64,000 nucleotides of DNA. It comes from Micractinium sp. NFX-FRZ. Its lineage: Eukaryota; Chlorophyta; Trebouxiophyceae; Chlorellales; Chlorellaceae. This document shows positions 120-63,077 of the stretch, one piece after another. The stretch's first letter is position 1. Every line of letters begins with the position of its first letter. A program made the translations under genes and the position numbers. A model generated the notes under the pieces. That model was not told the DNA's origin. It saw nothing but the letters and a program-made list of their open reading frames with translations, and made no database searches. The stretch covers positions 23,704 through 87,703 of the forward strand of contig JAPTJF010000258.1 of assembly GCA_029339195.1 (NCBI GenBank), in the 5' to 3' direction.

Positions 120-3100
120 TCACTTGTTGCTGAGGTTGGGCACGGGGCTCAGTCCGTCGTCGCTGCCGCTGCCGTCAGCGCTGGTGGCTGCTGTGGTCCC
201 CGCCAGCGTGGCAGGCGCGGTGTTGGCACCCGCCAGGAAGCTTGCCAGGCCGGGGCCAGACACCAGCTGGTTCAGGCCCAGCGCTGACATGGCGGCATCG
301 CTGGCGACACGTGGCAGCAGGGAGGCTGAGCTGGCAGAGCCGGGCGGCTTGGGCGTGCTGCTGGTGCTGCCCCCGCTCTCCTGCTGGTACCGCATGACCA
401 GGGGCTTGACGCCTGCAGGCAGGGCAGAGGGGGTGGGCGGGGGGTGGTGAGTTGACGACTTAAGATCGGATGGCGGGAGTGGAGTGGGGCGAGTGAGGGC
501 GCGGGGTGGTGAGACGCGGCCTTTTTGGTGGGGTCGGTGGAGGTCAGGTGGAGTTAGGCAAGACAGACGTGAAAGTGATGTCAACAGAGCACTTGGGAAA
601 GGCCAGGCACAGGTGGCCAGCACATACACGACCGTCGATGATGCACGCCACCCCCGCCTGCCCGCTGGCCCCCCACCCCCTCACCCGTCAGCTGCGGAAT
701 GGCCAGCCCGTCCACCGCCTGCATCGCCTTGATGGCGCTGCCGATGTCGGAATAGTTCACAAAGGCGTAGGCCTTCACCGGGAACACGCGCACTGCGGGG
801 GAGGGAGGGAGGGAGGGGGGGGGACAAGAGGGAGGGGTGTGTGGGTGTATGTATTCGTGCCTCAGCTGGGGGTGTGCAGCATGTCTGTCGGCGTGGCTGG
901 CCCACAGAAGCTGGCCTTGATTTGGGGGGACACCCTGGGCAGATGCCACGTTGACCCGCCCAGCTCCAGCGCCCATGCCTGCCATGCCTCCTCATCTAAC
1001 TGCGCCCACGTTCCCAGAGAGGATGCACACGCACACCTCCTGCACTCCCTTGCCCCTCCCTCCCCTTCCATGCCAGCATGAACCACCATCAAACCGAAAC
1101 CAAACAGCAGACTGCCAGCAGTGCCTCTGCTCACCCGAGTCGACCTTGCCAAAGGAGGCAAACACCTCGAGCACGTGCTCATCCGTGGGCTTCTGTGTGA
1201 TGTTGCCCAGCCAGAGGTGGCGCGAGGGGACCATCACGGCTACAGGGGAGGAGCAGGGGAGGAGGGCAGCGGGGCAGCGGGTGGAGGTGAGGCAAGGTGG
1301 GTGGGTGAGGGCAAAGTGCCATGGGGCTGCTGCGTGCGGGTGGGGGTGCAAAATGCTGGGGCCGGGAGCTGGAGGGGCAGGGAGGCCAGGCGGGCAGGCT
1401 GCTGTTGTCTCAGAGCAGCGGGGTGGCGGGCACAATCAGGCACCTGCCTGTGGTTCCCTCTCCCTATCCTCCTCTCCCTCCCTCCCCGCGACGTGCCCAC
1501 TCCCCTCTCTCGCTCACTCTTGCCAGGGTCTGAGGGGTCCTCCCCCCGCCCCACGGGCCCGTCGTTGGCGGGCTTGTACCGCATCTTCAGCTGCTTGCTG
1601 CCGCTGAGAGGGGGCACCACCTGCGGGGTGGAAGGGACGCAGCAGGTCGGGGCAGGGTGGGGCAGGGCAGGGCAGGGCTGGGCACGGCGAGCGATGGGAG
1701 AGAAGGGCCCACAGTGTGCACGCATTCCTGCCGCCCACACAACAACTCACACACACATACAAAGGCAGCCACCGTGATATGGAGCGCAGCACCCAGTTGG
1801 GACTGCGGTGTGTGGATAACTCCAGGGCTCCTTGCGCTGGCTGGCTGGCTCACCGTGTTGTTCAGCGACTCAAAGGCGCGCGTGGCGTCCTCCACCCGCT
1901 CAAACTTGACAAAGGCGTAGCCCAGGGGGCCGATGCGCGCCGGGAAGACGGCGGCGTCGGTCAGCACGCCAAACCTGCGTGTCAGCAAGTGTTTGAGCAA
2001 ACAAGAGGGTGGGTCAAGGTGGGAGGGGCGGCGGTGGTGGGTGGGGGAGAAGAGCGGCGGCGTGCGTGGCGCAATCCGTGCGACGGAGCTGTTGCGCATG
2101 TGGGATCCGCGCAAGCACACACGCTGCAGGTTGCCCCCTACCGTCTCCCGCCCTGCCGGGTGCCCACCTGCCCAGCACGGCGTGCAGGTTCTTGGAGGTG
2201 GCGGTGGGCGCGATGTTGCCCAGCCAGATGCGGGGGGAGGGCTCCGAGCTGTTGCCGTCACGGTCCAGGTCCAGCCGGCAATAGCTGCAGTACCAAGGGG
2301 CAAGGAAGGCAGGGGATGCCGGCAAATCAGCCAAGGCCTGGGCAGTGGGCTGACTGGAGCGGGACAGTGAGGGACGAACGAGGCGGGTACCAGATCGAAA
2401 AGGCCGCCACACTGCGCCTCAAGCCAGTGCCCACCTGTCCTCGATGGGCGACCCGTCCCCGCCCAACAGCAGCCCCAGCACCCCTTCGCCCAACCGAAAT
2501 CTGTTGTGCCTCAAGCCGCTGCCCACCTGTCCTCTGTGGGCGACCCGTCCTCGTCCACCAGGCCCAGCGCCCGCAGGTGGATGGCGGCCTTCTTGGCGGG
2601 GCGGTACTTGATCAGCAGGCGGCGGTCGCCTGCACGGGGATGGCAGGAAGGATGTGGTAGATGAGGCAGGTGAGGTGGGGTGGCGTGGGTGGGGCAGGGG
2701 AAGGGAGGACGGGGAGCAAGGGCGGCAGTGCACACAACCACCACTTGCAACAATGGGCCCCAATGCGCTGCCACCTTCGATCACCTGCATCCTGCGGCGC
2801 AGCCACAAACCATGCTGCCCATCCCAAGCCCACACAGCAGGCTCCCTTACGGCCCACCAGGCAGCAGGCTCCAGCAGCAATGCAAGGCCCACCAACCAGC
2901 AGGCTCCAGCAGCAATGCAAGGCCCACCAGGCAGCAGGCCCCTAGCAGCAAGGCCTGTGCCCACCTGTGAGCTCCGCCACCACCTGGTCCTGCAACGTGG
3001 CAAACGCCGACACCGCCTCCTGGGTGGTGCGGTAGTTGACAAACGCATACATGCGGCCGGGGAAGGTGACCACGTCGTCCACCGTGCCAAACCTGTGCGG

Positions 3101-11289: not shown

Positions 11290-14200
11290 CTACCGGCGCG
11301 GCAGCATGCCGTGACCGGGCCCGCCTGCCGTGGTGGCGCGCGCCGCTGCCACCTCTATCGCCTCCCACTGCTGCCGCCGCCGGTGCTGCTCCGCCTCCCG
11401 CCGCTGCTCCGTCTCCTCGCACTGCTGGCGGCACCGCTCATACAGGGGGCCGTCAATCTCCTGAAACATCTTGCGCACATTGAGCGTGAGGCTGCAGAGC
11501 GGGGGGCGGGCAGGGGTGCCAGGTGGCGGGCTGGTGAGGTGCATGAACTGCCGCGGTAGTAGAGTGGGTCGGTGAGGGGCGATGGGGCAACCTCCGCAGG
11601 ACACCGCCCCACCTCTCCATAGGTTGCAGTCCCACGTCCACCACACCCAACACCAACACCCAACACCTGTGCACACACAGTGCTGGCTGCACGATAGGCT
11701 CGACTGCGCTCGCAAATCAATCAACCCTCGCCTCCCCCACCCTGCCTGCAATGTACCCCGCATCTGCGCAGTGCCGGGTTTCAGGCGCGCTGCGCTTTGT
11801 GTTCCACCGCACTCCTGTCCACAAGCCCCACCTCCCTCCTCCAGCCACTGCCCCCCACACACCTGTGCACCGCCGGGTTCCAGTGGTGCTGCGCATTGTG
11901 CTCCAGCGCGCCAATCACCAGCGGCAGCACGCTCTCCCGGTGCTGCGCCACCAGCTGCACAATGTACTCGTTGTTCCACAGGAACAGGCTGCGCTCGGCC
12001 ACCTGCAAGTGTGGGCACAATGCTTATGTGTGTGAACAGCTGGAGGGTGCGCGCGCTGCTCACGGGGAACAGGCTGCATTCAGCCACCCGGACCGTGGCC
12101 ACAAGTCGCGCTTTGTGCCCCGCTCCCAGCGGCAGGCTGCATCTGTCCCTGCTTCATTCTTCTCTTTCTTGGATGACTGCCCAGCGCCGCACACCTGGAA
12201 GTGGCTGCTAGTGAGGCACCGCGAGATCTGGCGGAACAGCGGCTCCTGCACTCGCGCAAACTCCTCCGCCTGCCAAGAGGTGGGGGGAATGGACGAGTGA
12301 GCAGCGGAGAATGAGAGGGTGGGGAGAGGGGGCGGGGAGGGAGGGCGAGACAGCATTGGCACCACAGACCGCACCCCCTGCCCCACCAGCAGCACCAGAC
12401 CGCCCCCCTCCCCCGCCCCCACCTGCGTCAGCTCCAGCACCTCCTCCAGCTCCCCCAGGAACAGCACCTCCTTGTGGCTGTTGGTGAGCGGCCAGAACTT
12501 GAGCAGCGAGCGGATGACCGAGTCGGCCAGCCGCGGGTCCTTCTCCACAAACTGGTGGGGGGAGGCGGGGTGGAAGGGGGAGGCGGGGTGAAGGAGGGGA
12601 GGTGAGGTGGGGATTGCTGGGCGGGGCACGCTGAATTTGTGACTGAGGCGGCACTGGGGCGGCAGAGAGGCGGCTGGGAACAGCAAATGGGGTGGCCGCG
12701 CCGCAGTCCTCTTAGTCCCAGCCCGCCCGGCAGGCGTGCCTTCAACCCTACCCCTCCCAGGGAACCCACCCCTCTGCCCCTGCCTCCCACGTCCCGCTTT
12801 CCCACCACCCACCTGCGTGACGCAGTACGACAGCTGCTGGTGGTACGCGGGCAGGCACTTGGGTTTGTGCAGCGGCATCAGCGCGCGCTGCAGGAACTGC
12901 TTGTGCTCCTCCTTGAGCGGCAGCGCAAACCCGTTGATGATGCTGCCCAGGATCTCCAGCAGCTCTGTTGAGTGGGCAGGGGGGCGCAGGGTGAGTGGCA
13001 TTGAATGAGCACGAGACAAACAGGGAGGTGGCGCTTACACGAGGATTGCACCTATATATCGCTGGCTTGTTCTTTGCTCCAAGCATAGAACAGGACGCTG
13101 CTCCAGGAAGGGACATAGGGTGTGTAGGCAGGGGGGGGTGGCAAGTGGCAGCTACCGGAAACAGCACCCGACACACGTGTGCATGCATCCCTTCCACTAA
13201 CCTTCAGCCCAACCAACACCCGCCCCCCGTCCCACCCACCCGCAATGCCGTTGTGGTGCTCCGTCTCGAACACAAAGCGGTAGAACACAAAGTTGATGGC
13301 CTTGCGGATGAAGGGGCGGTGCACCATGAACTTGCCTGCATGCATGGCGGGCACAGCGGCAGGGGACGTTGGGACATGGGGAAGGATGGGCAGCCGCGCG
13401 TGTCTGCCTGGTCCCTCCCTGTGCTGCCCTGCCCTGCCCTTGCTATTGCTGCTGCCCGGTGTCGCAATCGGACCCCTGCCCTGCCCCTCCTGCACCTGCC
13501 CTGCTCCCGTCTGTGCTGCTTCCTGCCCTGCACCACCCCCAGGGAGGAGCCCGCAACCCCACGCACCGTAGATGCGGTGCAGGATGGTCTTCAGGTAGTC
13601 CCGCTCCCGAGGGTCCTCTGCAGGCAGGCAAAGTGGGAAGTGGGGCAGGTTGACAGTGGGGGCAGTCTGGTGAGGCAGTCGGGCGAGGCAGCCCGGCCAA
13701 GGCCAATTTGTGCCTGCCTGCCCCACCTCCAGCTACTCCCTCTCCAAAAACTGCAAACGAAACAGGCACACACACAAGTACAGTGCCCCGGCCACCCACC
13801 CGAGTCGAAGAGGTCCAGCAGGTGCACCACAAAGTTCTGGTCAATATGCCGCTTGGCCACCTTGGCGTCCGTGTCGCTGCTCACCACGTAGCGCAGCAGG
13901 AACTCGTACACAATCTGCAGCAGCACAGGCACAGCCAGCGCGCAGGTTGGTGGCGCAGATCTGGCAAGACGGGAGTGCAGCTGCTCGCCATGCGCAGCAG
14001 GGGCTTGTGCACGGTTGGCATGGCAGCACGGGTGCATGGGGAGGGAGGTGGGTGCACATGGGTGGGAGACGAGGGGCACCGGGACGCTAGCGGGGCCGCC
14101 CAGCTTGCTGCCACCACGCGGCAGTCTGGCATGCCCGCCATTCTTCTGCACCCATCCGCCATTCCTCCTACCCCATGCGACCCCGCACGCTACACCCCAG

Positions 14201-19400: not shown

Positions 19401-20310
19401 TCCGTGCAGGGATGTGATCACCCCCCAGAACGCGCCCCGCGTGCTCCGGGAGGAGCCCAACCCGCGCTACGACAACTTCATCGCCGGCACCGTCACTGTG
19501 GGGACGCGCGCCAATGTGGCGCCCGCCACCATGGTGGGCGCTGACTCAGCGCTGGGGGAGCGCGTGAGCGTGAAGCGCAGCGTGGTGGGGGCCGGCTGCC
19601 AGCTAGGCGCGGGCACCAAGGTGCGGGGCGGGGCGGGGCAGGGGGCAGGGCAAGGGGAAGGGCAACACGCGGCGGGGTGAGTGGGTAGCCAGCGAGGCGC
19701 GGTCATCATGGTGGGGCAGGTGGCCCCAAATGAGAGCTGTACAGGAGCGCGAGAGCAGCGGGTGCAGGCGGGTGCGGCCCGGCCACGCCGGTTGGTGCTG
19801 TTTGGATTGCAAGCGTTTGTGTGCGGGGGGTGGGGTGCAAGCGGGCTGCGGGCAGGAAGTGGGGGCCGACAGCTGCTGCATGGTGTGTGCATATGCACAT
19901 CATCTTGCACACATCTGCACACGGTGGCACCCTGCCCGCCCCCACACAGCTAGCTCACTGCAGTGCTTGCACCCCCCTGCTGCTGCTGTTGCTGGTGGTG
20001 GTGCATCACAGGGGGTGAACAGAGTGCCGATGGATGAGACAATGTGCACACCACCCTGCCCGCACCACGCAGCCCGCTGACTGCACCGCCTGCACCTCCC
20101 TCTTGGCATCCACAGGTGGTCAACAGCGTGCTGATGGATGACGTGCGCACGGGCCCCAACTGCAGCATCCACAACTGCGTCCTGTCGGCGGGCTGCGTGC
20201 TGGGGGAGGGGGCGCGGCTGCGCGACTGCCAGCTGGCGCCTGGCTACGCTGTGCCCGCTGGGGCGGAGCTCACGGAGGAGGTGCTGCCGGCGCCGACGCT
20301 GCGGGAATGA
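16415..20310 (+). CDS. Translation initiation factor eIF2B, gamma subunit
   Basis: Subunit of the guanine-nucleotide exchange factor that recharges eIF2 with GTP during translation initiation in the cytosol. Seven exons: 16415-16606, 16831-16908, 17178-17418, 17732-17862, 18570-18949, 19410-19620, 20116-20310, giving 475 residues (human protein about 450). The N-terminal nucleotidyltransferase-like fold shows LLAGGGGSRLYPLNASGIPK followed by VLLPVANRPLL. The C-terminal third has hexapeptide/left-handed beta-helix sequence such as GTVTVGTRANVAPATMVGAD and TGPNCSIHNCVLSAGCVLGE. A low-complexity Gly/Ser/Ala insert lies at about 265-310. The ATG has a GCCGCCATGG context. The gamma assignment over epsilon rests on length and absence of a W2/HEAT C-terminus. 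Introns 4, 5 and 6 all contain copies of adjacent exon edges. Confidence 0.93.
17460..17610. repeat. Degenerate TGTGC/TGATGTAGCG repeats in an intron
   Basis: Intron 3 of the eIF2B gamma gene contains a run of diverged pentamer and decamer units such as TGTGC and GTGATGTAGC. No coding potential is supported. Confidence 0.6.
17979..18445 (+). repeat. Tandem decoy copies of eIF2B gamma exon 4 end and donor
   Basis: The end of exon 4 (CACCGACCTGGTGGACATGC from 17841, followed by the donor) recurs at about 18043, 18175 (partial), 18283 and, weakly, 18401. The copies are separated by CAG-repeat tracts. A flanking segment beginning GTGCAGATCTTGGGGTGG is present at 17979 and 18222, showing a second-order duplication of about 240 bases. 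Confidence 0.85.
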
Positions 20311-32104: not shown

Positions 32105-32142
<38 letters not shown>

Positions 32143-44105: not shown

Positions 44106-44616
44106 GAGCGCTTGTGCCCCGTGGCGCCTACTCCTTCAATCCATCCCCCGCAGCCAATTTCTTTGCCTGCCTTTACATCAACGGCAGCCGAGCGCTTGTA
44201 AATAACGACAACTGGGGCGGCAGTGGTGGCGGACGCCAGGCGGGGTGGAGTGGGGGCCGGGCCAACCAGCGGGCACGGCTAATCGCGGTTGAAAACTCAA
44301 AACATGAAAAGCAGTTGAAAACTAGCGGGGGGTGGCGTCTCACACAGGGGAAACGCCATCGTACTGGGCAGGGCATGTGCGGCGCGCTGATTGAAATAAA
44401 CGCGTAATATGGCAGGTCACTCTCGATGGTCAAAAAACAACAGCACGCTCAGGCACCGGCTGGATCAAAGCGGGGGGATGTCGCATGTTGGGAAAATGTG
44501 TGTGTTGCTGCTTTGAGGCGCAGCACAGGCTTGGAAGTGCGGCACTACTTGCTCGGCGCGCTCGCAGCGCGCGCAGCGTTGCAAACAAGCTTGGCTGTTG
44601 GCTCAGGGGTCCTCGC
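44106..44616. other. Spacer downstream of the DUF1990 gene
   Basis: 511 bases. It holds the presumed 3' UTR of the DUF1990 gene, with a minus-strand TGTAA (plus TTACA at 44173), and the promoter of the Cys-rich gene. No supported ORF. Confidence 0.5.
44173..44177 (-). terminator. Possible poly(A) signal TGTAA, DUF1990 gene
   Basis: Minus-strand TGTAA about 440 bases after the stop codon at 44617. Confidence 0.35.
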
Positions 44617-47508
44617 TCAAGCCTGGACTGCTTGGGCCACCGCCTTGACGCCATCCAACACATACCTGCAGCCGTGGAGGCAGGCGGCGGGCGGCACACA
44701 GAATTTCTCTCTAGATGGGCAGTAACGCAGTCACGGCATGCACACATAGGCAGCACACAGGCCAAGCAAGGATGGCACCAAGCAACAGAGGGGCCAGCCC
44801 CATCTGAGCTGCATGAGACTCAAAAGCCGGGAGGGAGGCCTCAGGCCGCCGCCGCCGCCCTAGCCAGACTCGCACCACCCCTGCGCTTGCCTCCCCCTGC
44901 CACCCTGGACCCCATCTGTGTCCCGCATACACAGCAAGCACCTGGCAACAAACGCACGTGCAGGACCGGTTGTAGAGGCATGGAACGTGTGTCTTACACA
45001 CGCCACATGCATGTGTGCAGGTGCACAACAAGAGGGTCAAGCGCAGGCGCGCCGGATCTGCATGCATGTGTGCCTGTGCACAACACAAGAAGGTACGCCG
45101 TGCGGCACAGCGCACCTGATCTGCATCAGCTTCACCACGGGCAGGGAGGCCCAGGCCAGCAGGGTGTCGGGGCGGGAGAAGAGGAAGATGTCGTACCTGG
45201 GCCAGGGGAGGGGAGCGGGCATCAGGGGCAGGATCAAGGCAGGGCCAAAGCAGGGTGCCCAGGCGTGACTGGATCAGGGAGGGCTCATGCTGGGGCCATG
45301 GCCGGGAGGTGAGGCAGACGTGGGGAGGGTGCCGACTGGTGGTGAGGAGGAGGGCGCAGGAGCGCTGGCCAGACGGGAGGCAAGTCGTCCCACAGAGGAG
45401 CCCCGTATATGCGTGCACCACGCTGAGACCACATCGTGCTATTCGTACGACATGCACTATGCTCTCATACAATCCCTCATCACAGCCACTCGCTTAACAC
45501 CGACCCACGACACAGAGCCGTGTGCAGGAAGTCGAAATTCAAACCGCTCCGCTCCTCCCCCGCGCCAGCCGTGCCCCACAACATCCGCTGCGCACACCAG
45601 CTCACCACACGGAGCCGTCTGCGTGCAGCTCCACCGCAAACCGCTCCTCCCCCGCCAGCTGGTGGCCGTTCAGCGAGCACAGGCCCAGGGCAAAGCGGCG
45701 GCCTGCAGCGGGGGCGGGGCGGGGCGCGGTGGGGCTGGCGGATTCGGGCGGGCGGGCGGGCGGGCGGGCAGGCGGGGCAGGCCGGATCAGGGCATGATGG
45801 GGCGCGGGGTGGGAGGAAGGCGCCCGCCGCCTGACCGACCCTCGGCCCGCCGCATCACACTCTCTTCCTCCCTGTCTATGCTACCTCGCCCCGCCCCGCC
45901 CCCGCCGCACCAAGCTCGCCCACGCACCAGTTCCCAGCCCGCAGCGCCCCACGCAGGCCCACCGCCACCTCTTAGCCCCACACCGCACCCCACCCTCGTT
46001 TCTGGGCCCAAACTTCGCCCTATGCCCGCCCCCGGCCAACGCCAGGCTCCTTTGCAACACACACATACAGCCACCCGACAGGAGGTGCCCACCCTTGTTT
46101 CCGGGCCCAAACTCCGCCGCTCCCTCGCTGCTGTACGTGACCTGGGCGGGCAGCACGCTCCAGGGGACCACGGTCTGCGTGGCGGAACAGATGACGGCCC
46201 CCACTTTCTGGGCGGGCTCGGTGGTGCAGTTCCAGCCTGGCGGGCCAGAGGGGGAGGGAGGGGGGAGGAGGGACGAGGGAGGGGGACATGATGTGTTAGA
46301 AGGTGCCTGTGGCGGAACACATGGCTGCCCCAGCCTTTTGGGAGGGTCCAGTGGTGCAGTTGCGGCCTGGCAGGGGGAGAGAGGTGCAAGGAGGAGAGAG
46401 TGTGTGCCAAGGGGAGGGGGTTGAGGGCGGTGGGGAGCGTGGTGGGGAAGGGGGCGGGTGGCCGCACACCGCGAGGGGCTTTGAGCTGCGCTGCAGCTGG
46501 GCGCTTGACGCGGCAGGCGCAAGGGCTCACGCACGCAGCCCCTAAACCCTAAACCCTAAACCCACCCAGCTGCAGGTGCTGCCAGGACTTGACCGCCTGC
46601 ACCGCCGCCTCATACGCCGCCTTGCCCTCCCCCACCTGCGGCACAGAAACACAACAGAAACACAACACTGGTCAGATTGCGCCGGGTGGCGCCAATATGC
46701 ACTCACTCACCACCCGCAGCAGGCAAGCACGCACGCACGGAAGTACACACGCAAGCAAGCACGCAAGCAAGCACGCACGCAAGCAAGCACGCAAGCAAGC
46801 AAGCACGCACTACCCAGCCTGGCCCACCTTCTTGCGCTGCTTGGTGAGCATGAACCCGCCGGACTGCACCTCGGCCGGCAGGTCGGGGGCAGACAGCGAG
46901 GCACCGGCATGCTCGTGGTTGCAAGTGCGGCTGCAGGCGCGGGGGGGGGGGTGGTGGGGGGGGGGGCAAGAGGGATGAGGCAGAGTGGGTGAGGCAGGGG
47001 GGGGAGCAGCAGGCATGTGGAGGGCACGGGCAGGCAGCGATGGAGTGCAGGGGGGAGGGGAGGGGGCAGGGAGAGGGGCTGGAGCGGCAGGCATAAGCAG
47101 GGGCAAGAAGGCAAGGTGCATCTAAGGTGGAACATTTGCAGCCAGGGGGTGGGAACAAGGCGAGGGAGGAGGGGTCAAAGGGCAGCCGGGGGGCGGGCAG
47201 GTGGACAGGTGCTAGCACGCAGATTGCTGCCTGCAATCTCCCCCCATCTCCCAGCTCTGCATGCACCCTCCAGCTCACCTCTGCCACTGACGCATCAGGG
47301 AGTCCATGTCTGCGGCTGAGGGCTTGCCAAAGCGCAGGGAGGAGAGGCCAGTTGGGTCATGACCCTCCCTTGCCGCCGCTCCTGCCGCCGCACCCCGCCC
47401 GCCCTGTTTGGCGGCCTGCAGAGGCGGCGCCAGCACGCGGCGCCGCAAGACGCCGCTTGATGGGGCCGATCGGACCGCGGGTGCAAAGGTCTGCGCAACG
47501 GCTGCCAT
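44617..47508 (-). CDS. DUF1990 / UPF0548 domain protein, probably plastid-targeted
   Basis: Seven exons with agreeing phases: 47508-47279, 46930-46828, 46635-46566, 46236-46093, 45702-45606, 45196-45116, 44665-44617, giving 257 residues. Residues 1-55 are Ala/Arg/Ser-rich and lack acidic residues at the start (MAAVAQTFAPAVRSAPSSGV), like a chloroplast transit peptide. The DUF1990 core follows: GKAAYEAAVQAVKSWQHLQL, GWNCTTEP, VTYSSEG, LCSLNGHQLAGEERFAVELH, ADGSVW and YDIFLFSRPDTLLAWA. The family has no firmly established reaction that I can name. The short last exon (RYVLDGVKAVAQAVQA) is supported by splice sites and phase only. Intron 3 begins with telomere-type repeats, and the exon 4 edges are duplicated on both sides. 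Confidence 0.82.
45985..46030 (-). repeat. Decoy copy of DUF1990 exon 4 end and donor
   Basis: TTTGGGCCCAGAAACGAGGG in minus sense repeats the real exon 4 end (TTTGGGCCCGGAAACAAGGG) about 95 bases downstream, including the GTGGG donor. Confidence 0.8.
46303..46365 (-). repeat. Decoy copy of DUF1990 exon 4 start
   Basis: Imperfect copy of the first ~60 bases of exon 4 (real from 46236), located upstream in the same intron and retaining a CAG acceptor-like border. Confidence 0.7.
46539..46563. repeat. Interstitial telomere-type array (CCCTAAA)n
   Basis: Three and a half units of CCCTAAA, the plant/Chlorella telomere heptamer. In minus sense the array reads GGGTTTAGGG and begins within the donor sequence of DUF1990 intron 3 (exon ends 46566). 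Confidence 0.95.
46722..46812. repeat. GCAAGCAAGCAC microsatellite in an intron
   Basis: Alternating GCAAG and GCACGC units over about 90 bases, in intron 2 of the DUF1990 gene. There are no spacer/repeat units of CRISPR type. Confidence 0.85.
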
Positions 47509-48644: not shown

Positions 48645-51598
48645 ATGGCGGCCCCTGCTGGGGGGGCGGCCCTCGCCGCGCCCCGCCCGCACACCGCCGC
48701 GACACGGCCGCTGGTGGTCGTCCTCTTCCTCTTGCTGGCAGCTGGCACTCAAATGCTGCTTGCCCAGTACGGCCTGCTCTCCCGCTATGTTCAGGTGTGA
48801 TTTTGGGCATGGTACAGGGGCTTGCCGCTCCACATGGGTGCAGGCATGCACCGCGGCATGATGCATCGGCTCTTTCCAATCAACCCCCTGCTGCCGGCAC
48901 CGCCCACCACATTCTCCCCACCCGCCCACCGCTGCCTGCAGCTCAAGCCGTCGCCTCCGCTGCCTGCGCTGCGCCTGGTGGTACTCACAAACCTGATAGG
49001 AGAGGCAGCCCTGGTGGCCTTCCACCTGCTGCCGCTGGGCCTGCTGCACTGCTGGTGGCGGCGGCAGCAGCAGCAGCAGCAGCTGGAGCAGCTTGAGCTG
49101 CCACTACACCAGGCAGCTCTGCAGGCTGGCATCGGAACGGGACCCACTAACAGCAAGGTTTCTGCCAAGGGGTTGGGGGGGAGCGGCAGCAGCAACGGCG
49201 GCGGCGGCGGCGGCAGCGGCGACAGCGAGCGCAGCGGCGGCAGCGAGGCGGGAAGCATTGCTTCCACGCCCACGGGGCCGGCGACCATGCCTGTCGAGGC
49301 GCACCAGGTGGCAGCAGAAGCGGGAAGTTGCGAGGCACGCCACCTTCAGCAGCAGCAGCGGCGGCAGCTGGCGCCGGCGGCCACGGCGAGCACGCTGCGG
49401 TCGCCGGTGCCGCTGGTGCGTGGCATGACCCTCCGCATGGAGCGCTGGCAGCAGGAGCGCAGCCCGCTGCTGCGGCGCCGCCTGGCCATGGGGGCAATCA
49501 CCTTTTCCTTCATGGGCACCTGCTCCCTCCAGATCCTGGCGCCCGGCTTTGTGGACGTCTCAATCGGTGCGTGCGCGGCTGCACGCACACGAGCGCTCCT
49601 GGGTGCAGGGTGGGGGGGGGATGCCTGGTGGGGAGTCGATGGCGGGGTAGGGCAGCTGCCTTGGTGGGGCCCGCCTGCGCGGGATCAAGTGACCAGCGCC
49701 CTTGCTGCGGCAGTGGCACTGATGATGATGTTACCAACCCCCGGGCACTCTGCCAACCACAGCATGGAGCCTCCCAGCTGCAGAGCCTGCTGTGGCGCCG
49801 TCTTCCGGCCCCCCCCCTGCACCCCCTCCCCCCCTCCCCTGCCCTCCCTTGCCATTTTGCGCCGTGCTCCCCACCCCACCCCCTGCAGTCCAGCTCACCA
49901 CCCAGTGGACCACCCTGGCCATTGCCCTCACCCAGGCCCTGCTGCTGCACGCCCGCCTGCCGCGCGCCTTCTGGCCCGCAGTGGCCGTCATGCTGGGAGG
50001 TGCGCACCGGGCGGGGCAGGCTTCGGGAGTGCGGGTGGGGGGTGCAACAAAAGAAGACTTTAGGCCGTATATGGAACGTGATCCTCCTGCTGACGTTTTC
50101 ATTCCCCTCCCTTCCACCCTCCCTCCCCGTCTCCGTTATTATTTATGCCCACCAGGCGCCTGCATGGTCATCATCCCAGCCGTGGGGCAGAGCACCGTGG
50201 GCAGCCTCAGCACGCCGCGCGGCTGGTGGGGCTTTGCCATGGCGGTGGGGGCGCTGCTTTCCACTTGTGTCTACTACTGCCTCCTGCAGGTGTGTGCTGT
50301 GCGGGTGGGGTGGGGTGGGGTGCACACAAGTCCACTGTTCACATCAACTTATTCCAACACTCCAACAACATATGCATCGTCGGATGGGCCCGTGTGTGTG
50401 TCTGGTGGACGGTGACTGCGTCGTGCACGGATGGCCTGGCCTGGCGTCTGGGCAAGAAGCCAGGGACCCTCCAGCCTCTCCGCTGTGCCTCACCCCGCTG
50501 CCTCCCTTCCCCCTCAGCACACTTCGGGGTTTAGCCCTTGATCGACCTTGCTCCCAACCACTGCCACGTCCCGCTCACCCCGCTGCCTCCCTTCCCCCCT
50601 GCCCCCTGCGCCCCCCTGATACATCAGGCCACCCGCCACTTTGGCTTCAGCGCGCTGCAGCTGCAGCACCTGATGAACACCGCTTCCATCCTGTTCTTCC
50701 TCCCCCTCACCCTGCCCATCGACGGCGCCAGCTGGGCGGGCCAGTTCTCGGGCTGGGTGGCGCACGACTGGGTGGCGCTGCTGGGGCTGTCCACTGCCGC
50801 CTACCTGGGCAGCGGCATGCTCATGCAGGTGGGCGCTGGGGTGGGGGTGGGGGAGGGCAGCTGGGTGGGTGCAGCTGGGGTAGGTGTTTGGTTGGTGGGT
50901 GGCGAGGGTGCCATGGCCACAGCGCGGGCTGTGCTCTCCGTTGTAGGGCTGGGCGGGCGCACAGTGCAGCGAGCCACGCCAGGCTGCCCTGCTGGACGCG
51001 TATGCTGCCTCCCGCCCTGCTCACCTGCTGCCTGCCCATGTGCTGCGTGCCTACATCTGCTCACTTCACCCTCACAGCCCCTGCCCCTCCCGTGCCTCCC
51101 TCACCCCCCGCCAGGTCTGCGTCTGGAAGCTGGGAGCGCCCACGGCGGCGCTCTTCTTTGGCCTACGTGCGTGGGCGGGCCTCTCCCGTTGGCAGCGTGG
51201 GGCTGGCCTGGGGCGGCGAGGCCACGGATTGCGCAGGGGCAGGCGGGGGCGCTGCAGCCAGCCGCTTGAGCATCGCCGCTGCTTGCAAACACCCTTCCAC
51301 CCCCACCGCCCCACCCCCCACACACCCCGCAGGCCTCGTCTTTGCCTGCCTGCTCTCCGACCCAATCCTGGGGGCAACGGTTATCCAAACGGGGGTGCAG
51401 ATAGCGGGGGTGGCGGTCACGGCGGTGGCGGTGACGTGCTACGCGGGCAGCCAGTGGTGGGCCAGCCGGCAGGCGGCGCGGTGCGCGGCGGCGCAGGCGC
51501 AGGAGCAGCGAGAGGAGGGGCAGCGGGAGGAGCAGCGGGAGGCGGAGCAGCAGCACAGTGGACAGCAAGAGCAGCAGCAGCCGCCGGCGGCAGGGTGA
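48645..51598 (+). CDS. EamA-like (drug/metabolite) multi-pass membrane transporter
   Basis: Seven exons: 48645-48794, 48942-49566, 49889-49999, 50156-50289, 50628-50828, 51115-51166, 51333-51598, giving 512 residues. About ten hydrophobic helices can be seen, including VVVLFLLLAAGTQMLLA, LAMGAITFSFMGTCSLQILA, FWPAVAVMLGGACMVIIPAV, WWGFAMAVGALLSTCVYYCL, WVALLGLSTAAYLGSGMLMQ and GVQIAGVAVTAVAVTCYAG. A long Gln/Gly/Ser-rich loop (about residues 88-210) separates helices 3 and 4, and the C-terminus is Gln/Glu-rich. The order resembles the EamA/DMT fold, to which purine permeases and other plant metabolite exporters belong. The substrate cannot be inferred. Intron 4 holds a decoy of the exon 5 start. 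Confidence 0.72.
50508..50545 (+). repeat. Decoy copy of transporter exon 5 start
   Basis: CAGCACACTTCGGGGTTTAG resembles the real exon 5 border (CATCAGGCCACCCGCCACTT then TGGCTTCAGC at 50622). The preceding CCCGCTGCCTCCCTTCCCCC tract is also duplicated (50497 and 50580). Confidence 0.6.
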
Positions 51599-55410: not shown

Positions 55411-58400
55411 ATGGCGTTACCAGCTTGCAGAGCGTTGCTGTCATTTCCCGCAACGCCGGCGCGTGTGGGCCGCCGCCCAGCACCGCCAAATGTTGGGGCC
55501 AAGACAACACACAGTTTGCGGCGACACAGGAGCGCTGCGGCGTCCTCCTACCCGCGCAGCAATAGCAGCACGTCCAGCTCAAAAGAAGGAATCACGTTGC
55601 CGCTGAACAGTGCCGAGGTGGGTCCCGAGCGCTCCTTTCTGCGAGCTTGCCGCCCGACCCACCTGCGGGGTGCCTTGGACGCGGCAGGTGGGTCGACGAT
55701 CGCCAAGACTCACTCATCGCCGTCAGGCCGCCGTACTGGGCGCTTCCCTGCGGCGCCTGCATGCCGCCGCCGCTGCCGGGCAGGCGACAGGGCGCGGTCC
55801 TTGCTTGCCCCTTGACGACCGCTTGGGCAACCCATCCCCCACTTGGCAAGTGCAGCTGCTGGGTCTGCAGGATGTTGAGATGCCCCTAGGCCCCGCGATC
55901 GAGGCGGCCTATGATGATCTGCTCAACCTGCCGTTGGAGGAGGGGTACAGGTCGGTTGCAAATGGTGCCTCCCTGTGCAGTTCATTTGAGGTTGCTGTTT
56001 GAAAGCTTGCCAGCTAGCTGGGCAGCCTAGAATGTCAAGCTGCACACGCCGCTGGATGGGCGCGTGTCTTGCCGTGGGTCCTGGATGTTTCATGTATTTT
56101 GGTCTCAGCTCTGCTGAGCACGCCGCTGCTGGATGAAAGGGGCAGGTCAAACATCAATCAAGTGAAGTCACCCTGCAGCTGCTGGGTCCGGAGGGGTGCT
56201 ACACATGTGTATCACATGTGTATCACATGTGCATCACAGGTGTATACAGATGGCCAGCCACAAATAGTTAGGCAAGGAGAAGCCGCTGTGTGCTGCATCC
56301 CTCGGCTGCCGCGCCTCACATCCTGACACCCGCCACACCCTGTGTCGTGTTTATGTTGCAGCGAGCTGGCGCGGCTGGGCAAGGAGAAGCTGCTGTTTGC
56401 GGCCCGTGACCGCGTGCGCGGCGTGCGCGGCCGCGTGGCGCTGCTCAGCCCCACCGTGCAGGTGCAGAGGGAGGCAGGAGCGGGGCAGGGCGGGGTATGC
56501 AGTGCGGTGTGTAGTTGGGGAGGGCACATGCCGTAGTGCTACCCACTGGCTGGTTGAGCTGTGGCTGCCGTAACTCGGCGCCCTGGCACCAGGCATGCCT
56601 TGCGCCTGCCTGCCTGACGCCCACGCCGCCCTGAGCTGCCACTAACAGATGGTGGCTTGATTGCCTGCCTGCTGCCTCGCCTGCAGGTGGAGCCGCTGCT
56701 GCTGCCGGGAGCCATGGCGCTGCTGCACCAGGTGGGCGGGTGGGTGCATGGGTGGGTGGGCTGAGAGTGGCACCCGCGAGCAGCGCTGCTGCCGCCTGCT
56801 GCCCCTGCTGCTGCGCTGCTGCCCCTCCTGCGGCCCTGTTGCCACTGCTGCTGCCACGGTCCCTGCTTCCGCCCCTGCTGCCACTGCCTCCGCTGCCGGA
56901 TGCTTTCGCTGCTGCCTCTCCTCATTGTCACTGTGCCCGCACCCCTCCCCCTTGCCTTCCACACGAACACGCACAGGTGCGGCGGTACGAGGAGGTGATT
57001 GCGTTGAGCGAGGAGGGTGCGGCGCTGAGCACGCGCGAGATCCGGCGGTCTAGCCGCGACACGATGCGCGACTTTGAGCAGGACATGGCGCTGGCCACGG
57101 CACTGGCCCAGGTGCGCAGCCGCAGGCACAACATGGCACAACATGACAGGGCTAGGGGTGGTTGTTTATTTTTGACTTAATGTTGGCTTCCTGGGGGGGG
57201 ACGGCTGGGCCAGGCCATTTGAGGCATGCATGCCCACTGTGTGGAGGGTGGGCCGGGGGTGTGGGGCCGGGGATTTGCCCCCCCAGCTGCCGAGGGGCTT
57301 ACAAAAGTCTTTCAGGCAGTACATTGCGCTGGCCACGGCACTGGCCCAGGTAACCACACAATCGATTTGCCTCGGAAAGCATCAAGGCAGCGCCTGCGCC
57401 TCTGCCCACCCGACCCATCCCAGCCGCCCCACCCGCCCCCCGCCCACCCCCCACCTGCAGTGCGGCCTCGCCGACCGTGCACTGAAGCAGGGGCAGCCCG
57501 CCCTGGCCTGCGCCCGGCTGGCAGAGGCGCTGGACCTCCTCACCGACGCAGCAGGCCTGCCAGGGGGAGGGGGCAACGGCGTCAGCAGCCTGCTGCCGGG
57601 GCGCACGGCGGGCGGGGAGGACGCGTCGGGGCGGCGGCAGCTGGCGCCGCGCCTGCAGGCCGACATCCGGTCGGCGCTGGCAGAGTACCACCCGGATGCG
57701 GTAGCAGACTACCTGCAGGTGCCTGCGCCTGTGTGTGTGCGTGTTTCTGTGTGTGTGTTTGTGTGCCTGTGTGCCTGCGTGTGCTTGGTGCCTTTGTGTG
57801 CTTGGTGCCTGTGTGTCTTTGTGAGTTTGTGCTTTCGGGTGTGCGGGTGTGCCTCCGCCGCCCCCGGCCCCCGCCCTCAGCCCTCCTTTTCACATGCCCC
57901 ACGTGTGCCCCCCCCATCTCCTTGCTGCGCAGGTCCCGCTGGACCGCGCCGATTTTGAGCTGCGCGCTCGGGAGGTGTCTGCCCTGCGCCGCTGGGTCGC
58001 CTCCCCGGCCACCGCCCTGCGCCGCGACCAGTCCCCCATCTGCTCTCCTGAATACATGTCTCGGGTGGTGCCCTGCCTGACTGGCGGGGAGCTGTGCGGG
58101 CTGTATGACTGGGAGTGGCTGGCCGCGGGGGGCAGCCCCGCCCGCTGCCCCTGGTACTACCCGGGGTTGCTCAAGGTGGGTGGGGGACCGGTGGGTTGCG
58201 CTGTGCTGTGCTGTGCTGTGCTGTGCTGTGCTGGCGTGGCAGCCTGCAGGTAGTGAGACGTAGATGCAGGGGCTTATCAGGGTGGTGATGTGGGACTGCG
58301 GGGCTGCGGCGCAATGATGGGGGCTGGACAGGTGAGGAGCTGGTGCCTGGTGCTGGGGTTGGGTTGTGGTTGTGCGATGCGGGAGCTGGTGTAGGGGAGA

Positions 58401-61400
58401 GGGGAGTCTGGGACACTTGCATGCAGTGTGTTTTGCTGCTGCAGCTCTAGAGCTGCCCGGTACTATCCGGGACTGCCCCGCTTACCTTGCCATTCCGCCC
58501 TGCCGCTGCCCCGGTGCCTCCCTCCCTCCCTGTTCTTTCAAGTGCTCTGGCCTGCACCATTTTGTGGCGCCCCACCCGCTGCTTCACACAGCCCTCACCT
58601 CACCCACTCCATCAAGTGTGCTTCATGCCTCACGCGTATGCCCCCCTGCCCCTCACGCCCGCAGCGCGCCGCCCTGGCCCACCTGGTTGCCGGCTTTGTG
58701 GAGCGCCGCCCGCTGCTGGTGCGCATCGCGGCCAAGCTGTTTGGGGTCATAAAGAAGGTGAGTGGGGTGGCTTGGAAGTAACATAACTGCAGGTGGGCTG
58801 AGGGGGAGTGAGGCCCATGTGATTGGACAGCTAGCCGCTGGTGCGCCCTCCCCCCACCACACCCCACACACATGCACTGACCCGGCGCCGGCCCTTGCTA
58901 TGCTATGTTCAAATCGACTCAACCCGGGCCACAGCCACCCACCTCCACCCCACCCCCGCCCCATCCCCTCTTTACACCTCCCTGCCTTTCCAACAGAGCG
59001 ATGAGGATGCTGCCCTGTCTCTGGCCATCTGCAAGCTGCTGCTTCTGTTACACTTTTAAAGTGGTTATGATATAACAAACACTCCTTTCCCTGCAGAGCG
59101 ACGAGGATGCGGCCCTGTCCCTGGCCATGTGCGAACTGCTGCTGGGCAACGCCGGCGGGGCGCTGCATTTGTTGGAGGACGACGAGCGGGCGCAGCAGGC
59201 AGCGCTGGCGCAGCAGGCAAAGCAGCGGCGGCGGGGGCGGGACAAGGCCGAGCCGCCGGCGCCGGCAGCTGCAGCTGCTTTTGCAGGAGGTGAGGGAGGT
59301 TGAGGGGCCTGTGAGGGGTTGTGTTTGCACGCTCCTGCCCACCACCACCCCCACCACCACCACCATCCTGGCATTTCCTAAAGTCGTGAAACTGCCTGGC
59401 TGCAGCCGACGGCAGCGGCGAGAAGGCGGCGGGCGCGCGGCAGGGGGGACCCGAGGCGCGGCACGCAGTCATGGCCTTCATCCGGCAGCACTCGCCGCAG
59501 GTGAGGGCCTGCCACTTCTGTAGTCAGCCCATGATCAATCAACTGGGTGCTATCCAATATGCGCTGCTTGCTTTTTTAGCAGCTGTGACGGCGCCCATGC
59601 AGCAGCAGTGTCCCCGCAGCACCCCTCTGGTTACACGGCTCACCCACAGGCTCCACTCCCTCCTGTCAATGCAAGCAAGACCTTGACTGGCAGATGCGCC
59701 TGGACTCTTCAAGCTCACAATGTGCTGCACCGTGTGATGGGACTGGTGTTGTTGCACTTACACAGGAAACCATCTGCATCGTGCCCCCGCAGGGAGACCT
59801 GGACCTGCGCCCGGGCCCTGCTTTCGAAAATTCTCGCTGTTTTTGTACTGTGTAGTGAAATGCTATTGTTATACTTACAAAGAGCCATGTGGGGCCCCCG
59901 CAGGGAGACCTGGACCTGCGGCCGGGCCTGGCCCAGTTTGCCTGCTGGTGGCTGGCGGCGGTGGCCTACCCAGAGTTCCAGGACACGGGTAGGCGGGGAG
60001 GGCCGGCAGGAACCCTTGGTGGGGGGGTGGAGCCTTGGGTGTGTGGTAGGCGGGGGTGTGTGGTGGGCAGGGGTGGGGCTTGCGCACACCCAGCGGAGGG
60101 TCAAGGCCCTGCTGGGCGGCCAGGACAAGCGCCTGACACACTAGGATGGTGCTTCTCTCACCAGCTGAGGCGGCATGGGCAGGTGGAGGCCGCCCCTGCA
60201 GCCGCATCAATCACAAGGGCAGGCGCCCCTGCCGGCTTGCCGGCCTGCGTGCCTATTCATGCACCCCCTCGCCCGCCCGCCTGTTGTAACATGTGATACT
60301 GTCTCACCCGCCCGCCCACCGCTCCTGCAGCCATGGGGGCCGCGGCACGCCCCGACCTGGGTGCTTATTTCGAGGACTTGCGGGTGCAGGCGTTCCTGGC
60401 GGCGCAGGTGGGTCAGGAGCCCGGCGGTTGTTCTGTGTTCAAGCAATGCAGCTGGTGTTTTGGGCGGCATGGCTGGGGTGCAGGCGCTCCTGCCAGCTGG
60501 TGGGTCTACCTATAAGCTGGGAGGGCACGGAGGTTCAGATTTGGCAGGCCCAAGCCATGCGCCGCCAGCGTGGGCGAATAGAAGGGGGCAGGCGCTGGGC
60601 AAGGCGGGGCAAGTGCTGGCAGGCTGTGGTGTAATGATGAGGTCATTTGAAGTTTGGCACAGCCTCATGCCCACCCACGCCCCACCCTTGTCCATCTGCC
60701 CTGTCCACACCTGCCCACCCTATGCGCCTGCAGGACGGCCGGCCCAGCGGCGGCATGCTGGGCATGCTGTCCAACGCCCAGTCAGCGCTCATGGCACGCC
60801 TGGCACATGCCAGCCCCCCGCCCCCCCCCCCTGCGATGGCAGCAGCAAACGGCGCCGGCGCTCGGCCAGGCGAGCCGCCGTTGCCGGCGCGGCCGCCGCA
60901 GCCGCCCGGGTTTCTCCCAGCCAAGCTGACAGCTGGGCGGGCGCTGCAGTGGCTGGCTGGTGCGCTGGCGCTTGCTGGCGGCATCTGGTATGGGGCTAAT
61001 GCACGCAGCCAGGCTACTGCTGGCGGCGTAAACGGCTGGGCAAACCTGCAGTGGCCGGCGGCGGGTGCAGTGGCAGAGCGGGGGGTGACGGCGGAGGAGG
61101 CGGAGGCGGCAGCGGACATAGGGGTGCCTGTGGGCGCGCTGCGTGCGCAGCGGGCGGCCCAGCAGCAGCAGCAGCGGCAGGAGGCGGCGCAGCAGCAGGC
61201 GCAGCAGCAGCAGGCGGCCCAGCAGCAGCAGCAGGACGCGCAGCAACAACAGCAGCAGTTGGAGCAGGAGCAGCGGGAGCAGCAGCAGGCGCAGCAGCAG
61301 CGGAGGCAGCGGCAGGTGGCTGCACCCAGTAAGAAGGCGGCAGACAAGCTGGTGGCACAGTGGCTGGTGAGCTCCCGCCATGCTATGCCCTGCTATGCCC

Positions 61401-63077
61401 TGCTTTGCCTTGCCGTGCCTGCACAAGGGCTGCACCCGCATGAGCGTGGGGTTCCGCCTGTGGGCACACTGTACGTAGCCCACACATTGGTGGGCAGCTG
61501 GACATACAGTGGCCTGCCGAAGCCTGCGCGCCTGCCCGGCAGCTTCCAGGTGGCACAGGTGTCGCCGCTCTCGCCCGCTTGCCTGCTTGGCACCCCCTGA
61601 TCCTTCTGACCATCCCTGCTGGCGCTGTGTGACCGCTAGCGCCGCTGTGGTAGCAGCACAGGCCTCATCTTCCTGCTTCACTTTGCTTGGCTTACCGTAG
61701 CTGTACGCCTGCTCTCTCCGTCTGCAGCGCGTGAAGGCTGACGCGATGGGGCAGCGGCACAAGACGGAGCGGCTCGCCCAGGTGTGTGTGCTTTGTGCTG
61801 AACTGCTGTCCCTGCCACCCCGCCTGGCAGGTGCTGGCGGAGCCTGCGGTGGCAAAGACGTGTAACCCGCCTTCAGCCTGCGGTGGCACACCCTCCCCCA
61901 CCCCTGTGCGCCCCGCCCTGCCAACACCCCTGTCTGCCCTGCACATCCCCCGCCTGGCAGGTGCTAGCTAACCCGATGCTGTCTGGGCCCCCTGTCCACC
62001 CCCCATCTGTGCAAAACATCCTCCCTCTCCTGCCCAGCCCCCACAACCCCTAACCACCCGTTCCACCCCTCCACCTCCCCGCCTTGCCCACAGGTGCTGG
62101 CCGAGCCGATGCTGTCCGCGGTGGCCCAGGAGGCGCAGGATGCCGCCAGCAGCGGGTGGTACTGGCAGCTGCGGCCGCTCAAATCCAAGGTGGGGTGACA
62201 CATGTGTGTGTGTGTGTGTTGGGGTGAGGCGGGGGTGGGGTGCGGGAGGGTGTGGGTGTGGGCAGCAGCTGCCGTCTACGTGCAGCGTGTGAGGGGCTGC
62301 GCGTGCAGGGGTAGGCACAAGTGGGCCTGGTTCGGTGGCTTGCTGCCGCTGTCCGCACTGTCTCGTTGCTGCGTTGGCGCTCCTCTCTGCCCTGTTCCCA
62401 TCCCAGCCCACCTGCACCTGTTTGCTGCAATTGCATGCGTCTGTGCCGCCTCAACGCCTCTTGCGCCCCCCCGCGGCCCCTTCCCCCGGGTTGCGGCCGC
62501 CCCAAGCTCCCCCTGCTGCCACCTTGGTAGCAGAGCTAGACTATACTGAAGTAAACCAGGGTTCGAGTTCTGGCTGTCCAACGATTCAACCAGGCCTCTG
62601 CCGTTGCTCCTGTGTTGCCTCCCCAGGTGGAGTCCCTGGGTGGCAGCAGCTTCCACCATGGCTTGCACTATCGAAAGAGACCATGGGTCTATGCCTTCCC
62701 CCACTGCCCCCCTTTTCCTTCCCCCCCAGGTGGAGTCTGTGGATGGCAGCAGCTTTGACCCCGCCAGCGCTGCCGGCCACGTGCTGGTGGTGGCCTCTGT
62801 GGAGGAGAGCGCGCAGCTGCTGGCCGCCGATGGCAGGAAGGGGGACAGCTACCAGACGACGTACCAGGTGGGCAGGGTTGTGCAGGGTGCGGGTGCCAGG
62901 GATCTTGCGATGCGATTTGAGAGTGGCGGTTGGGAGCTGGGGGGGCTCCTGCTGGCCTCCCTAACACCACTTTTTCGGGCTGTAACCTTCTCTTTCTTCG
63001 TCCTGCAGGTGGAGTATGCTCTGGTGCACCGCGACGGCGCTTGGAAAATGGCTAGTGCCAGCGTGCTGGCCAGCTGA
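55411..63077 (+). CDS. ARC6: Chloroplast division protein ARC6 (Ftn2 homologue)
   Basis: Inner-envelope protein that, in plants, tethers FtsZ on the stromal side and PDV2 in the intermembrane space. Seventeen exons with agreeing phases: 55411-55617, 55856-55950, 56362-56461, 56687-56731, 56977-57111, 57461-57718, 57933-58175, 58665-58757, 59097-59289, 59406-59500, 59904-59988, 60331-60407, 60734-61366, 61728-61781, 62094-62189, 62730-62867, 63009-63077. They give 871 residues (Arabidopsis about 800). Residues 1-55 resemble a transit peptide. ITLPLNSAELLGL starts the J-like region (about 60-130). The middle contains LQADIRSALAEYHPDAVADY and SDEDAALSLAMCELLLGNAG. A membrane segment (LQWLAGALALAGGIWY) lies at about 613-628, followed by a Gln-rich stretch. 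The DUF4101/IMS domain closes the protein: WYWQLRPLKSKVESVDG, VLVVASVEESAQL, YQTTYQVEYAL and WKMASASVLAS. At least six introns carry exon-edge copies. Confidence 0.93.
56206..56246. repeat. Short tandem repeat CATGTGTATCA
   Basis: Three to four imperfect 12-base units (CATGTGTATCA) lie in ARC6 intron 2, directly before a decoy copy of exon 3. Confidence 0.85.
56262..56300 (+). repeat. Decoy copy of ARC6 exon 3 start
   Basis: TTAGGCAAGGAGAAGCCGCT resembles the real exon 3 sequence at 56375 (CTGGGCAAGGAGAAGCTGCT). The acceptor is not preserved. Confidence 0.7.
57317..57355 (+). repeat. Decoy copy of ARC6 exon 5 end and donor
   Basis: GCGCTGGCCACGGCACTGGC followed by CCAGGTA repeats the real exon end at 57088-57113 exactly over 25 bases, about 240 bases downstream. 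Confidence 0.9.
58196..58232. repeat. TGTGC pentamer repeat
   Basis: Seven tandem TGTGC units in ARC6 intron 7. Confidence 0.9.
58992..59058 (+). repeat. Decoy copy of ARC6 exon 9 start with stop codon
   Basis: Complete AACAG acceptor followed by about 55 bases matching real exon 9 (AGCGATGAGGATGCTGCCCT versus AGCGACGAGGATGCGGCCCT). It would encode SDEDAALSLAICKLLLLLHF and then a TAA stop. Confidence 0.9.
59783..59822 (+). repeat. Decoy copy of ARC6 exon 11 start
   Basis: GCCCCCGCAGGGAGACCTGG repeats the real border at 59894. Similarity also extends about 40 bases upstream into the intron (TTGTTGCACTTACA versus ATTGTTATACTTACA). Confidence 0.9.
60474..60510 (+). repeat. Decoy copy of ARC6 exon 12 end and donor
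   Basis: GGTGCAGGCGCTCCTG... and GTGGGTC resemble the end of exon 12 (GGTGCAGGCGTTCCTG... and GTGGGTC at 60383-60413). Confidence 0.7.
61820..61990 (+). repeat. Two decoy copies of ARC6 exon 15 start
   Basis: Acceptor plus exon-start copies lie at 61821 (GGCAGGTGCTGGCGGAGCCT) and 61951 (GGCAGGTGCTAGCTAACCCG). The real border is at 62091 (CAGGTGCTGGCCGAGCCGAT). Confidence 0.85.
62621..62660 (+). repeat. Decoy copy of ARC6 exon 16 start
   Basis: CCCCAGGTGGAGTCCCTGGG then TGGCAGCAGCTT mirrors the real border at 62726 (CCCCAGGTGGAGTCTGTGGA then TGGCAGCAGCTT). Confidence 0.9.

Follow-up and report, generated by a model that had tools for sequence, protein, structure and literature searches.

The systems of Gao and Lynch 2009 and Hellsten 2011 reportedly involve short tandem duplications in which gene segments are copied together with their splice signals, and a review counts tandem duplication among the routes to intron gain (PMC3443670). 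In the RdRp gene of potato, a duplication across an intron-exon boundary gave rise, by way of a cryptic donor, to a new intron (PMC4974935). The duplications reported here, from the green alga Micractinium sp. NFX-FRZ, resemble those of the first two systems in kind and the potato case in spanning the intron-exon boundary and copying splice signals, but the outcome differs: the copy sits within a pre-existing intron, and a new intron is not observed. In place of the birth described for potato, an old intron appears to absorb the inner copy, and this at 67 of 850 junctions.

Vaughn and Bennetzen 2014 reportedly dealt with small tandem duplications arising from break repair. Broken ends are known to give rise to small tandem duplications (PMC8355091), and the copies described here are likewise direct, adjacent and about 100 bp or less; the likeness is one of sequence pattern, and the narrow size of 75-135 bp at junctions is a feature added here. 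Introners (PMC9860276) also represent recurrent sequence gain in introns. Here, by contrast, the copied sequence is the edge of the adjacent exon and does not occur in other introns above control level. In tandem exon duplication with mutually exclusive exons, exon sequence is duplicated beside itself, whereas here only the exon edge (7-67 bp) is copied, and the copy decays. Among the full-text matches listed (titles and opening lines of abstracts, at most 20 per search of up to 3,012 hits), none is a paper on junction-spanning duplications of fixed size in introns, which does not amount to absence from print.

Sample and gene models

The sample consisted of the window, that is, the whole 64-kb stretch of DNA analysed here, and of one 10-kb stretch from each of 24 other contigs, giving 304 kb out of 66,065 kb of a 66-Mb genome in 838 contigs. 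Genes were modelled ab initio by a two-strand, splice-aware gene finder trained on the 304 kb without transcripts, which returned 430 introns with a median of 270 bp and a modelled splice consensus of CAG/GTGNGT at donors and TGCAG/G at acceptors (the slash marks the junction). Apart from PP2A B56, eIF2B gamma and ARC6-like, the gene names used below (RRM, His-rich, F-box, sulfotransferase, DUF1990) are those of an earlier sequence-only reading of the window. Loci L001-L008 and L029-L033, which had been chosen via a search, were excluded from every count. The edge-probe test covered 399 introns, 31 of the 430 being dropped for short exons or a length outside 120-1200 bp, and the clustered-window counts covered 425 introns with 850 junctions (5 of 430 dropped).

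Detection thresholds were chosen by us during the analysis. The complexity filter removed 209 of 322 repeat pairs, including some that are real by the swap test (22633, 32825). A further 6 of 59 pairs had no assignable junction and were excluded, leaving 53 alignments at 45 junctions for the codon-position and spacing-remainder counts; divergence was taken from 36 of these 45 junctions, 9 with fewer than 20 aligned exon bases being dropped. The intronic comparison set comprises 22 first-order duplications in introns of at most 700 bp without junction copies.

Copies of exon edges in introns

An intronic copy of the exon edge was identified at 67 of the 850 junctions (34 acceptors and 33 donors, in 62 of 425 introns) with clustered ungapped windows. 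With 45-base probes and a local score of at least 30, the start of the exon matches the intron before it in 25 of 399 cases and the end of the exon matches the intron after it in 33 of 399, against 7 of 9587 (acceptor) and 9 of 9587 (donor) swaps with length-matched other introns, so that an exon edge matches other introns about 85 times more rarely than its own. The sequence-only reading had proposed to check its observation by aligning exon edges with their own introns and with controls, and over the 304 kb this comparison bears the observation out. Within genes, the acceptor edge matches its own upstream intron in 26 of 419 cases, the next intron in 2 of 365 and the previous one in 1 of 364; the donor edge matches its own intron in 35 of 411, the previous intron in 0 of 365 and the next in 1 of 356. 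With 0-2 matches in 356-365 other introns of the gene, added to the swap counts above, introner-like dispersal of exon-edge copies was not found. A reverse complement search of the own intron gave no inverted copy at any of 419 acceptors or 411 donors; the copies are direct and lie beside their source, in the orientation and adjacency of small tandem duplications. Copying of whole exons was not found either, the exon part being 7-67 bp in 53 gapped alignments (up to 82 bp in one windowed event) and probes from the exon interior (bases 45-90 from the edge) matching in only 2 of 279 and 0 of 269 cases.

We also noticed that a 45-base probe from the middle of the intron matches the rest of its own intron in 24 of 399 cases (swaps 15 of 9587), which means that intron self-similarity extends beyond the edges. 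As a boundary without a splice site, CDS ends gave 3 matches in a small sample of 46 (swaps 14 of 2070), two of which are simple repeats, the third (37311) being doubtful; CDS starts gave none in an equally modest 41. A duplication with an offset of ~98-109 bp does lie at 37205-37372, at the modelled CDS end of the minus-strand gene 37312-39062, and is either a case at a boundary without splicing or the sign of a donor that the model missed.

The phenomenon is not confined to the window: at least one junction copy occurs in 16 of the 24 sampled stretches, in line with the general recurrence that had been suggested. The window is nevertheless about 2.5 times richer (24 of 166 junctions versus 43 of 684 elsewhere, p 0.001). 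For 8 of the 12 junctions with two or more copies, the distance of the second copy is 1.75-2.05 times that of the first (hand count). Enlargement of introns, as had also been claimed, goes with the copies: copy-bearing introns have a median length of 387 bp versus 254 bp for the others (p 4e-14), and 285 bp after subtraction of one unit. A search of Rfam for structured RNA gave no match at gathering score.

Loci in the window

At all 21 coordinates listed in the sequence-only reading, the alignment to the junction surroundings of the same intron is better than that obtained with pieces of other introns (p 0.0005-0.006, 2000 swaps each), and self-BLAST of the window recovers most of the 21 pairs; the weakest two are 60474, with a score of 35, and 61821, with a score of 34. 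As duplications they therefore all stand. By our own gene models, 19 are exon-edge copies or further copies in an array (Table 1), but 38575 and 50508 are not exon edges. For 61951 the best swap-test partner is on the donor side (61781), and 61937-61983 also matches the acceptor region 62067-62116. The recurrence claimed for the genes of the window is real and widespread, 9 of 12 modelled genes having a junction copy by clustered windows.

Table 1. Duplicated exon edges and related tandem duplications in the window (positions in the window; spacing in bp between copy and source)
Feature	Positions	Strand	Gene	Real site	Spacing	Remarks
Copy of exon end and donor	2413..2480	-	RRM	donor 2526	92	
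Source exon end and donor of the 2413 copy	2505..2575	-	RRM			
Copy of exon end and donor	11761..11810	-	PP2A B56	donor 11862	99	absent from the sequence-only reading
Copy of exon start	17626..17662	+	eIF2B gamma	acceptor 17731	106	splice site lost; absent from the sequence-only reading
Copy of exon end and donor	18040..18071	+	eIF2B gamma	donor 17862	202	32/32 bases identical; within array 17978-18507
Second copy of donor edge 17862	18280..18311	+	eIF2B gamma	donor 17862	442	
Copy of acceptor and exon start	19314..19346	+	eIF2B gamma	acceptor 19409	90	
Copy of acceptor and exon start	19928..20037	+	eIF2B gamma	acceptor 20115	104	
Copy of exon end and donor	22633..22698	+	His-rich	donor 22577	106	
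Farther acceptor-edge copy	27031..27059	+	F-box	acceptor 27214	180	
Nearer copy of acceptor edge 27214	27117..27140	+	F-box	acceptor 27214	94	
Copy of acceptor and exon start	32825..32895	+	sulfotransferase	acceptor 32969	114	
Copy of acceptor and exon start	33148..33209	+	sulfotransferase	acceptor 33276	121	
90-bp tandem duplication	38486..38637	-				both copies modelled at or inside one exon, in frame; exon-edge status uncertain
Copy of exon end and donor	45989..46019	-	DUF1990	donor 46092	99	
Copy of acceptor and exon start	46309..46371	-	DUF1990	acceptor 46236	130	
Perfect 25-bp repeat	50489..50513	+			85	both copies modelled within intron (exon starts 50628)
Copy of exon end and donor	57316..57351	+	ARC6-like	donor 57111	238	junction homology-supported
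Copy of acceptor and exon start	58985..59043	+	ARC6-like	acceptor 59096	100	
Copy of acceptor and exon start	59749..59817	+	ARC6-like	acceptor 59903	111	
Weak copy of exon end and donor	60476..60506	+	ARC6-like	donor 60407	94	
Two acceptor-edge copies	61818..61983	+	ARC6-like	acceptor 62093		period ~130
Copy of acceptor and exon start	62618..62652	+	ARC6-like	acceptor 62729	103	

The gene models at copy-bearing junctions were compared with homologous proteins in three genes. In the PP2A B56 gene the real exon aligns to B56 delta without a gap, leaving no space for the copy at the junction. In eIF2B gamma two of the four copy-bearing junctions are ungapped and the other two have a gap of 1-2 residues nearby. 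The ARC6-like protein has its best homologues among Micractinium proteins (66-68%), together with a 521-residue protein encoded on a 1861-base contig (86%), which by homology places the alga in the Chlorella group; the gene is continuous with the Micractinium homologues at all six copy-bearing junctions, four of which are spanned by the 521-residue protein. The ab initio models and the assembly in 838 contigs are what would make one think of an annotation or assembly artefact, but we give this almost no credence, considering the protein support for these joins, the swapped-intron controls near zero and the divergence of 9-23% in 33 of 36 copies, which makes a duplicated-contig assembly error unlikely for those copies.

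Several other repeats were seen in the window. In the complex eIF2B gamma intron array at 17978-18507, stretches as long as 300 bp recur at distances of 244, 362 and 109 bp with 72-77% identity, and two copies of the donor edge at 17862 form part of the array. Just upstream, a TGTGC/TGATG-type simple intronic repeat at 17465-17620 has many genome-wide matches and could pass for a dispersed element; a candidate element at 17470-17610 was rejected as this simple repeat. An intron of the RRM gene contains a 35-bp minisatellite (2851-2951, 2.9 copies), and the gene at 20702-24649 has His-rich coding repeats of several sizes (69 bp, 144 bp and larger) at 23350-24490. Two segments of 67-68 bp, 82% identical and 586 bp apart, lie in modelled intergenic sequence at 63341-63993, and the 5.5 kb without a gene call at 39063-44616, between two minus-strand genes, may contain a missed gene.

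Spacing and unit geometry

A close examination of the distance between copy and splice site revealed a narrow spacing that the earlier reading had overlooked. It is 75-134 bp in 53 of 67 junction copies, as compared with 4 of 22 purely intronic duplications (Fisher p 5e-7), with 32 of 34 copies in this range at acceptors and 21 of 33 at donors; the 33 of 34 acceptor copies at 150 bp or less have a mean of 107.7 and a standard deviation of 14.6. Word-pair correlation gives the same picture, with a tenfold peak at 90-105 bp for words spanning a junction (0-2-fold at 30-75 bp) and a 3.9-fold peak for exon-intron pairs; intron-intron pairs fall from 5.8 to ~3 over the same distance range, intergenic pairs stand at 2.4 at 75-90 bp and exon-exon pairs at 3.6 at 105-120 bp.

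Such figures would be expected from an event directed at exon borders and tied to splicing or transcription (a break, a nick pair, a stalled fork or a chromatin edge), which would duplicate a unit of ~105 bp, roughly 30 exon plus 75 intron bases, mainly at junctions. We regard this as unlikely, though worth weighing, as duplications of similar size are also present in introns without junction copies. The ratio of own to swapped word pairs in these introns is 1.69, 2.84, 2.87 and 1.36 at 75-89, 90-104, 105-119 and 120-134 bp, respectively, and is ~1 or below in four bins from 200 bp on. This interior bump at 90-120 bp suggests that ~100-bp duplications arise inside introns too; it comes from about six introns, two of which supply 56 of the 199 word pairs.

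In all 55 junction units of 75-150 bp, the unit minus its exon part is at least 50 bp. The better-kept arrays include contiguous whole-unit examples (L026 6562, L026 8826, L010 7851, L015 712, and nearly so L027 6205), and the intron side fades fast, most other arrays being too decayed there for their head-to-tail structure to be read. At L015 712 an 11-base overlap at the unit ends can be seen by eye; breakpoints are otherwise too decayed. Spacing is not biased toward multiples of three, the remainders 0, 1 and 2 occurring at 15, 22 and 8 of 45 junctions, and the excess of remainder 1 (22 of 45) is without explanation. We also considered, and rejected, the copying of an entire short intron together with its two flanking exon edges, only 5 introns having both an acceptor and a donor copy against ~2.6 expected by hand calculation from 34 acceptor and 33 donor copies in 425 introns.

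The geometry bears directly on intron gain by tandem duplication of AGGT-containing exon segments, which the sequence-only reading had put forward. That route likewise places a tandem duplication at exon borders, and the potato intron born from a duplication across an intron-exon boundary lends it some plausibility (PMC4974935). It would require an offset equal to the intron length, and no such event was found (0 of 198 events matching to within 15 bp; 401 of the 425 introns were scannable); moreover, the introns exceed the unit in length. Rogers-type intron gain is rejected with the absence of this required geometry, and the AGGT route in general appears highly improbable for these copies.

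Junctions and intron interiors

The copies had been thought more frequent at junctions than elsewhere in introns. Here the comparison has to allow for the fact that exon sequence changes slowly, so that junction copies stay visible longer. As an internal gauge of visibility, the intron-only part of junction copies is detectable alone in just 10 of 55. With this gauge, uniform placement predicts that 23 (12-38) introns contain an interior duplication of 75-150 bp under a requirement of 45 intronic bases per unit, and that 12 do without such a requirement; 9 are seen. Depending on the assumed filter, the apparent junction excess after allowing for exon preservation is thus 2.6-fold (45-base filter) or 1.3-fold (no filter), and the claim in its simple form is not supported. 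This residue is a further point for an event directed at junctions, set against which better exon preservation, on the 10/55 gauge, explains much or all of the excess, and the youngest class (28 of 30 matches, 75-134 bp) contains 7 junction and 6 interior cases, too few to reveal a bias. That junctions are the preferred sites of a set ~105-bp duplication, and that a sizeable share of intron sequence would then be decayed duplicates of intron ends and neighbouring exon edges, preserving exon sequence within introns like fossils, seems to us rather doubtful.

The reverse prediction, from interior to junction, brings out the filter. At 75-134 bp it gives 29 junction copies with the 45-base rule and 56 without, against 53 seen, figures that rest on just 7 interior counts and the visibility factor of 10/55. 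At 45-74 bp it gives 26 copies without a filter and 2 with it, and 1 is seen; at 15-44 bp, 8 without a filter, and again 1 is seen. At 135-300 bp, 12 junction copies are seen and none predicted, because no interior event of that size was found in introns of at most 700 bp. The strict rule underpredicts at 75-134 bp, and doing without any rule fails for units shorter than 75 bp. Short units are missing at junctions, and a splicing filter against them is supported in general though not in an exact form. In a constant-birth simulation visibility favours junctions by 1.16- to 1.35-fold only, so the argument rests on the internal gauge and not on the simulation.

Divergence and splice-site retention

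Copy and exon differ at 10.9, 14.9 and 17.6% of codon positions 1, 2 and 3, respectively, a gradient expected if the intron copy drifts freely and the exon changes mostly at third positions. Pooled over the 36 junctions, the exon part is 15.1% diverged and shows no excess scatter; just 3 of the 36 copies fall below 8%. The few young copies and the lack of excess scatter suggest that formation is mostly past, unless young perfect repeats were collapsed in the assembly. The process had been called active, which these ages do not support, with the reservation that a short-read assembly could have collapsed perfect young copies.

In alignments that cross the junction, the nearest five bases are ~89-96% kept versus ~65-88% further out. 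This apparently better retention, together with the lack of excess scatter in divergence, could be taken as a sign of maintained decoy or regulatory splice sites, the copy being kept because a second site ~105 bases away tunes splicing or triggers nonsense-mediated decay. The retention signal vanished, however, when exon-only probes that omit the junction were used, and conserved decoy sites were rejected on this ground. With these probes the copied AG is in exact register in 10 of 19 cases and the GT in 14 of 23 (12 of 19 and 17 of 23 on visual inspection with a tolerance of up to 3 bases), and per-base retention is 27 of 38 for AG and 33 of 46 for GT against 80 of 95 and 90 of 115 for nearby exon positions. 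Neither the copied AG nor the copied GT is better preserved than exon bases, and the copies, in register with their source, decay like neutral DNA. A spacing without preference for multiples of three also speaks against maintenance. Maintained sites are therefore very unlikely, and the creation of decoy splice sites, part of the earlier interpretation, finds no backing here.

Origin and significance

In our judgement the copies are probably, for the most part, old small tandem duplications that have passed through a splicing filter at junctions. Their source would be a general process of small tandem duplication in genes, also acting within introns, with break repair or slippage as the candidate mechanism. 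Some of the direct tandem units, mostly of 75-135 bp, would by chance include an exon-intron junction. There the exon-proximal copy would go on serving as the splice site, and the inner copy would be absorbed into the intron, which would grow by ~105 bp, and decay neutrally there. A unit would survive at a junction only if it brought enough intronic bases (~50 in the cases seen) for the signals of the outer site; the exact splicing requirement may differ from this figure, and fixation probably lies mostly in the past. On this account the outer site must keep its own intronic signals, hence the missing short units at junctions, and the exon copy changes slowly, hence the ease with which duplications are spotted at exon edges.

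The interpretation given in the sequence-only reading is thus partly supported overall, and the idea of ongoing intron gain is corrected. What emerges in its place is a countable class of tolerated duplications that hit a splice junction. The missing short units may reveal how much intronic sequence a splice site needs, and each copy, as a freed and neutrally decaying fossil of an exon edge, could allow intron growth and the rates of neutral change and of insertions and deletions to be measured within one genome.
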